From Arthrobacter cryoconiti (GTDB lineage: Bacteria > Actinomycetota > Actinomycetes > Actinomycetales > Micrococcaceae), in contig NZ_JAJJBU010000032.1 of the NCBI RefSeq assembly GCF_020905375.1, positions 1 through 64,000 on the forward strand: a stretch of 64,000 nt of DNA. The letters are read 5' to 3'. The position numbers and the translations under genes are program-made. The notes beneath the pieces are model-generated. The model was not told where the DNA came from. It did not search any database and saw nothing but the letters and a program-made list of their open reading frames with translations. Position 1 is the stretch's first letter, and every line of letters starts with the position of its first letter. Of the stretch, positions 39,431 to 40,465 are shown piece after piece.

Positions 39431-40465
39431 ATGAACGCCATCCAGCCATCCCCCGTCCACGAAGGTCTACTTTCCGTCTCCGTGACACCACCGTCCTACC
39501 GGCATGACCCCAGTTCCCGTATCCGCCCCATCAACTGGAACCGTGTCACCGATGAGAAGGACCTCGAAGTGTGGAATCGACTGACAGCCAATTTCTGGCT
39601 CCCGGAGAAGGTTCCGCTCTCCAACGACATCCCAGCTTGGCAGAAACTCAGTCCTGAGGAGCAAACGCTCACGATGCGGGTATTCACGGGTCTAACAATG
39701 CTTGACACTGTTCAGGCCAGCGTCGGTGAGATCGCCCAGATCCAGGATGCCCGCACCGAACATGAGGAAGCCGTCTATACCAATATTGCTTTCATGCAAT
39801 CCGTACATGCCCGCTCATACTCCTCTGTGTTTTCCACTCTGACCAGCACCAAAGAAATCGACAACGCCTACGAGTGGGCAGTGGGTAATGATTTATTGCA
39901 AGAACGGGCGAAGAAGGTGTTGTATCACTACTTCGGCGATGATGCACTCAAACGCAAAGTGTCTTCCACCCTGCTTTCTTCACTTTTGTTATATGCCGGC
40001 TTCTATCTACCACTGCACTTCTCCGTGCACGCAACACTGACAAACACCGCCGATATGATCCGACTCATCTTGCGTGATAAAGCCGTCCATGGATACTACT
40101 CCGGCTATAAGTACCAGTGTGGACTTCAAACACAGACACTTGCTACCCAGGACGCAATGCGCAAATTCACTTATGACCTTCTCGACGAGCTCTATGAACT
40201 CGAACTCGCATACTCCGGAGCGCTCTATGAGCCACTGGGTCTCATGGACGACGTCGCGGTCTTCATCAGATATAACGCCAATAAAGCACTGATGAACTTG
40301 GGTTACCCGGCACGGTTCACACCGGAGCAGACAGCAGTGAATCCGGAGATCATGGCCGCGTTGTCACCTAACAGCGATGAAAACCACGACTTCTTTTCGG
40401 GATCAGGGTCCTCGTACGTGATGGGCAAAGGAGAAGACACAACGGACTCTGATTGGGAATTTTAG
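39431..40465 (+). CDS. nrdF: NrdF with QSK substitutions: class Ie (metal-free) R2-type subunit
   Basis: A 344-residue radical-generating subunit, colinear with E. coli NrdF. Aligned ligands: D92 (D67) kept; E98 is Q123 ([10 protein letters not shown], codon CAA 39797-39799); H126 (H101) kept; Y130 (Y105) kept; E158 is S183 (TCT 39977-39979); E192 is K217 (RDKAVHG, AAA 40079-40081); H220 (H195) kept. Loss of all three Glu ligands with Gln/Ser/Lys in place is the QSK signature of class Ie R2 proteins, which hold no metal and use a DOPA radical made from the conserved Tyr with NrdI's help. The rest of the fold, including the [13 protein letters not shown] tail, is intact. Start at ATG 39431 (AGAAGG box); a GTG at 39395 overlaps the nrdE stop. 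The 3' end overlaps the convergent LysR gene by 4 bp. Confidence 0.93.

Follow-up and report, generated by a model that had tools for sequence, protein, structure and literature searches.

The locus described here raises the question of what a bacterium with an ordinary class Ib ribonucleotide reductase would do with a second R2 subunit, encoded beside a metal importer, in which three glutamate metal ligands are replaced. The gene, nrdF-QSK (39431..40465, plus strand), lies in the 64,000-nucleotide stretch of DNA analyzed in this work (the window); it starts with ATG and its 344-aa translation has no internal stops. A preliminary description had reported the replacement of the three Glu ligands, each by an unambiguous codon, and the retention of the remaining ligands and the radical tyrosine. 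Translation and alignment to relatives bore this out, as Q123 is encoded by CAA (39797-39799), S183 by TCT (39977-39979), and K217 by AAA (40079-40081), with the Asp (D92), both His (H126 and H220), and the radical Tyr (Y130) retained. At the seven active-site positions the window NrdF therefore reads DQHYSKH, and it lacks three of the four carboxylates that, together with two His, form the class Ib ligand set. The class Ib pattern, DEHYEEH, was seen in 25 aligned rows, three of which are the host's own class Ib gene. All aligned loci together gave 109 rows of DQHYSKH, 49 of DEHYEEH, and none of any other pattern, the rows not being independent genes since several loci overlap. Because the same seven letters occur in 80 named relatives (the best 80 of 579) and in three copies from the same genus, a sequencing error at the three codons is unlikely, and we discarded that explanation.

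To place the protein, we also followed the alignment and tree check that the preliminary description had suggested. In a tree of 98 rows, 72 rows including the window were split from 26 class Ib rows with a branch support of 100/100; the analysis carried a long-branch warning, its bootstrap had not fully settled, and the window's place within the QSK rows is unsettled. On the 72-row side, a text rule typed 47 rows as QSK and 25 stayed untyped, while the alignment shows only DQHYSKH or DEHYEEH rows. The best solved matches of the window NrdF were 8RAG and 8RAH, the Gardnerella QSK R2e (508 bits; 334 residues aligned, gap-free), compared to 446 bits for the best PDB chain that has the Glu residues of class Ib. 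The residues, the tree, and the closest solved structure thus agree with the class Ie identity first proposed, and by these measures the window protein is a class Ie (QSK) R2, for which a metal-independent DOPA radical would be the natural inference. It is hardly credible that the protein is a class Ib variant with unusual ligands that still works with metal. Two His and one Asp ligand remain and a metal importer adjoins, but tree and nearest structure rule out a class Ib assignment, and the Gardnerella QSK enzyme, which has the same residues and is the best solved match, contained only trace Mn and Fe, has Lys in the Mn1 site, and was active with NrdI-dependent DOPA formation (John et al., 2025, PMC11846895).

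The same report counted 275 nrdF-QSK genes in 266 genomes, all of Actinomycetota and 148 of them in Actinomycetales, so the window NrdF belongs to an already published kind. We also found named carriers within Micrococcaceae (Arthrobacter, Micrococcus, Rothia, Kocuria, Auritidibacter, and Pseudoglutamicibacter) and beyond those names (Agrococcus casei and Brevibacterium linens). Hence, the earlier expectation that a Micrococcaceae-like genome would extend the known setting did not hold, and the window NrdF is a further case of the published class Ie QSK kind in a setting that is not new.

The host genome (3.6 Mb, 57 contigs) encodes two R2 genes, two R1 genes, and one NrdI. A class Ib nrdHIEF operon is located on contig C9, and its NrdE and NrdF are homologous to those of the window, with 64% identity between the two NrdFs. 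However, the C9 NrdF keeps all Glu ligands whereas the window NrdF is without three, and the C9 operon has nrdH and nrdI but neither a promoter box nor an importer nearby of the kinds described below for the window. Among 23 genomes of the host genus, the class Ib (type) copy occurs in all 23 and the QSK copy in four. A plasmid search returned only matches of 60-80% DNA identity. Judged from this gene content, the QSK reductase is a spare version beside the ordinary class Ib enzyme.

The surroundings of the QSK genes are of another kind. As the preliminary description had noted, a metal importer adjoins the nrd genes (34210-36787, minus strand). It consists of a substrate-binding protein of the Mn/Fe type that is divergent from nrd (35822..36787, minus strand; ZnuA family PF01297), an ATPase (35082..35825, minus strand; PF00005), whose best NCBIfam match is a manganese/iron ABC ATPase, below cut-off, and an ABC-3 permease (34210..35085, minus strand; PF00950). 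Beyond the permease lies a DtxR/MntR-family metalloregulator with a C-terminal FeoA domain (33487..34167, plus strand), for which PF02742, PF01325, and PF04023 are over cut-off. Just upstream of the regulator, luxS and a methylthioadenosine/SAH nucleosidase gene overlap (32219-33450). Elsewhere in the window, a permease, arginine deiminase, ornithine carbamoyltransferase, and amino-acid kinase-family gene stand in a row followed by a phosphoketolase (45993-53230), a gene row resembling the arginine deiminase pathway, and a xanthine/CO-dehydrogenase-like molybdenum hydroxylase cluster with CoxE, XdhC, and CoxG homologues occupies 20093-27894. The host has further DtxR-family genes at G000:C15:91660-92268 (45% identity to the window regulator) and G000:C23:72912-73598 (34%). 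Since the other 22 genomes of the genus gave only distant matches to the window regulator, it looks acquired.

This linkage was then counted across loci, using as criteria a regulator of at least 50% identity or an importer binding protein of at least 60%. The regulator was present at 28 of the 80 named QSK loci, the binding protein at 16, and either at 33, compared to 0/20 class Ib loci, for which ~10 kb upstream and 4 kb downstream were read. When the count was restricted to named QSK loci for which the upstream DNA of nrdI spans 4.4 kb or more, 27/66 were linked and 39/66 were without regulator or importer. Among non-redundant QSK promoters, 17/58 were linked vs. 0/20 for class Ib (Fisher p = 0.003), the class Ib loci being hand-picked, with nine taken from genomes that also have a QSK copy. 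At several loci, another DtxR-family gene, less closely related (29-37% identity), sits between the MntR-type regulator and the importer (L012:1625-2230, L013:1622-2227, L022:1709-2233). The terms "transporter" and "MntR" have 0 occurrences in the main text of PMC11846895, and we found no statement linking QSK enzymes to MntR or a Mn importer in the literature searched (mostly without subscription papers).

A palindrome search was performed on 58 non-redundant QSK promoters with <30% of 14-mers in common, drawn from 99 for which the DNA was long enough, including that of the window. The first motif, CACTACATGTAGTG, we take to be the NrdR box; two predicted copies lie in the window at 36905..36920 and 36936..36951, 31 bp apart. 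The second, distinct motif, AGTTCGGCATGCCGAACT, had a likelihood of 239 vs. 31.8-42.7 in 12 shuffled sets. With thresholds set at the 99th percentile of shuffles of each promoter set, a matrix from unlinked loci located this box in 15/17 linked QSK promoters, and a matrix from linked loci located it in 23/41 unlinked ones; together the held-out matrices found it in 38/58, with a small training/test leak, since the starting matrix was derived from all 58 promoters before subset retraining. The matrix from all 58 placed it, in sample, in 40/58 QSK promoters (18/58 missed the threshold) vs. 0/17 class Ib promoters (Fisher p = 1.5e-7), the latter being what remained of the 20 class Ib loci after three without usable nrdH/nrdI upstream DNA. 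We also examined 25 promoters of importer genes whose surrounding DNA, as far as it was covered, contained no nrd gene. They came from the 29 top-scoring genomes among 63 others that had a match, four having been dropped because nrd was adjacent. The box was found in 18/25 with the matrix from all 58 (7/25 missed the threshold) and in 17/25 with the matrix from unlinked loci, in a set that had no redundancy filter and in which at least two promoters have one site sequence in common.

In the window, the predicted MntR-type box, TGTTCGTCTAGACGTAGT, lies at 36843..36860 in the intergenic region between the divergent importer and nrd genes. With the matrix built from the unlinked QSK loci, it is the top site of the 64 kb (19.3 bits), and 0/2000 shuffles of the intergenic region scored as high. 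A second, weaker box-like site follows at 36866..36883 (9.6 bits, eighth best in the window). The strict box pattern has one occurrence in the 3.6-Mb genome; a loose 17-base pattern, with only 246 genome matches against 453 for its reversed control, was dropped for the strict pattern and the weight matrix. In the same genus, seven of 12 other importer genes were checked, and six have a related site, with a score that no more than 9/300 shuffles attained, while L245 is without one. Rfam gave no match over the gathering score in the window. As a predicted site, the box is an operator type common to Mn importer and QSK nrd promoters. The possibility that neighborhood and box moved together, by descent or by transfer, and have no regulatory meaning has to be weighed here, because there are many related loci: the window NrdF is 87-88% identical to the copies of Micrococcus lylae and Leucobacter celer, and of three copies from its own genus one is 87% identical and two are 80% identical to it, and its place among the QSK rows is unsettled. 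However, the box recurs in promoters that have so few 14-mers in common and in loci without the importer, and it occurs at importer genes away from nrd yet in none of the class Ib promoters. We therefore consider block transfer quite improbable.

A working class Ie enzyme would also need a catalytic subunit and an activator. The first is present, as nrdE (37227..39398, plus strand; 723 aa) is full length and scores 1146.8 bits against TIGR04170 (cut-off 750), although its catalytic and C-terminal Cys were assessed only visually. Upstream of it, nrdI is reduced to a remnant (37019..37179, plus strand, start read by eye) that holds only C-terminal codons in two reading frames: a tblastn match covers 37057-37179 with 44% over NrdI residues 135-175, a VITAGNTNFGEHYCLAGP-like stretch survives in one frame and a CRVPELYRFELLGTDRD-like stretch in another, and the N-terminal SENTRRF region present in intact relatives is missing. 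We found no nrdH beside the window nrdEF. The window QSK operon, as read from these remains, is without a working nrdI. We found exactly one NrdI encoded in the genome, and it belongs to the class Ib operon on C9. With the local copy broken, a working enzyme here would have to draw its activator from that operon.

A simple NrdI test was failed by 19/100 other QSK loci (some overlap), but in most of these NrdI is intact and only its motif varies. Real or possible exceptions were seen at L014 (contig end), L065 (none found), L083 (partial), L021 (start unclear), and L129, in which NrdI is located after the QSK nrdF. The partial case is that of Brachybacterium massiliense (L083:7622-7923), where an apparently truncated nrdI lies near nrdF-QSK and a Mn-type importer.

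The broken gene could mean that the QSK operon is on its way out, and one of the two main rivals to a role in manganese starvation is that it is a decaying, horizontally acquired passenger that, without its own NrdI, makes no DOPA and leaves all the work to the class Ib enzyme. This agrees with the presence of the QSK copy in 4/23 genomes of the genus vs. the class Ib type in 23/23. It also agrees with a quick, single-method NrdI tree in which 57/59 QSK-associated rows (exceptions L084 and L125) stand apart from 14 class Ib rows, so that the C9 NrdI may not fit. However, both nrdE and nrdF are full length and under purifying selection, with dN/dS of 0.047 and 0.044, respectively, vs. the same-genus copy L130; among the pairs compared, silent sites were saturated in 3/5 for NrdF and 1/5 for NrdE. 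Moreover, none of the seven active-site positions has been lost, and the promoter box is undamaged. Decay is unlikely in light of these observations.

The other main rival concerns the signal, in that the shared box may answer iron or general divalent metal shortage rather than Mn in particular, the reductase then being a backup for any metal stress. The regulator is in the DtxR family, and high iron also allows the MntR of C. diphtheriae to bind DNA (PMC13001254); since iron can load that MntR too, the signal may not be Mn alone. In Streptomyces, 8/11 QSK promoters (L008, L018, L039, L048, L054, L064, L066, and L074) have an upstream palindrome, TTAGGTATACCTAA, 462-473 bp before the nrdI match, in a layout that resembles that of the window box. 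In appearance, TTAGGTATACCTAA resembles an iron-box type site. Against this, the importer binding protein is closest to the Mn transporter MntC (4irm, E 1.6e-101), and the best solved match of the regulator is 5zr4 (209 bits); by score, the regulator stands closer to 5zr4, SloR, and ScaR than to either DtxR or IdeR. The regulator stretch VHDEAENLEH has Glu where iron sensors have Cys. Against the NCBIfam MntR models the regulator reached 147.7, 50.6, and 49.1 bits (cut-offs 350, 153, and 138), and against the DtxR model 83.2 bits (cut-off 290); the importer parts, like the regulator, fall below the cut-offs of the named NCBIfam Mn models. An iron or general metal signal is possible but somewhat doubtful.

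The conditions under which class Ie enzymes are used are not understood, according to a 2021 review (PMC8463856). Directly established here are the residues, the tree, the anatomy of the locus, its linkage, and the shared box, and with these in hand we consider it likely that the class Ie (QSK) reductase of the window, NrdE plus a metal-free NrdF encoded together with a DtxR/MntR-type repressor and an importer for Mn, is used when Mn falls. With enough Mn, the Mn-loaded repressor would close the divergent promoter; as Mn falls, importer and metal-free reductase would be released together, so that synthesis of DNA precursors would no longer be tied to the class Ib enzyme, which is a Mn enzyme by family. 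Control by dNTP levels, as is customary for such genes, would come in addition from the NrdR-type boxes. By the chemistry published for the QSK enzyme of Gardnerella (PMC11846895), Y130 would be converted to a DOPA radical with an oxidant from NrdI, which in this strain would be supplied by the class Ib operon. For the wider proposition that in many Actinobacteria the QSK class Ie enzyme is a Mn-starvation reductase under an MntR-type repressor together with a Mn importer, here activated in trans by the class Ib NrdI, we see about as much reason for belief as for doubt. Several observations stand against the Mn-starvation reading: 18/58 QSK and 7/25 importer promoters miss the box, 39/66 loci are unlinked, regulator and importer parts score below the cut-offs of the named models, and the Streptomyces loci differ. 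An operator common to QSK operons and Mn importers across several actinobacterial families would point directly to Mn shortage. With its broken nrdI, this strain also offers a natural test case for the ability of a class Ib NrdI to generate the DOPA radical of a class Ie R2.

Other lineages carry the QSK genes in varied arrangements. In Streptomyces, a cobalamin riboswitch precedes nrdI of the QSK nrdIEF operon in 7/7 loci scanned (L008, L018, L038, L039, L049, L054, and L064). Three genomes of one family (L126, L127, and L128) have nrdI-nrdF(QSK)-nrdI-nrdE-nrdF(class Ib) in one run, with two R2 types beside a single R1. We also sampled 121 genomes of the Corynebacterium group, in which the NrdF copies examined (64-86% identity, with at least five further rows at 64-66% left out) were QSK in 48/48. 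Of these copies, 28 have nrdI in view, and 20 are without NrdI in the short flanking DNA, with the promoter outside view. In uncontrolled counts, a MntR homologue (44-56% identity) lies near 11/28 copies with nrdI in view, 8/28 promoters have a site above 12.2 bits, and a TTCAA-N4-TTGAA variant is the best site in 7/28.

Among known systems, the QSK class Ie enzyme of Gardnerella (Bifidobacterium vaginale / Gardnerella vaginalis; 8RAG, 8RAH) is like that of the window in its Q, S, and K residues and in the retained D, two H, and Y. Published QSK systems are arranged as nrdHIEF (17), nrdIEF (106), or nrdIF (104) (PMC11846895). Gardnerella has nrdHIEF, whereas in the window nrdEF follows a broken nrdI, and nrdH was not found beside it. 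The two also differ in that the window host keeps a class Ib system and the window locus includes an MntR-type regulator and a Mn-type importer. The VPK class Ie enzymes of Mesoplasma florum, Aerococcus urinae, and Streptococcus pyogenes likewise have a metal-free R2 with three Glu lost, but differ in the VPK residues, the nrdFIE order, and their mostly Bacillota hosts. Regulation by metal has two partial precedents. The S. pyogenes class Ie system is repressed by Fe and Mn, as given in a 2021 review (PMC8463856), and in C. diphtheriae the nrdI-nrdF2 unit (dip1923-dip1924) appears with mntABCD in a 2026 table of MntR-regulated genes (PMC13001254), in passages that leave the type of NrdF2 unstated. 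A 2023 review described the C. diphtheriae ribonucleotide reductase as "very likely" Mn-dependent (PMC9936198); if the Mn-starvation reading is true, the presence of nrdF2 on the MntR list would instead suggest that this protein is metal-free.
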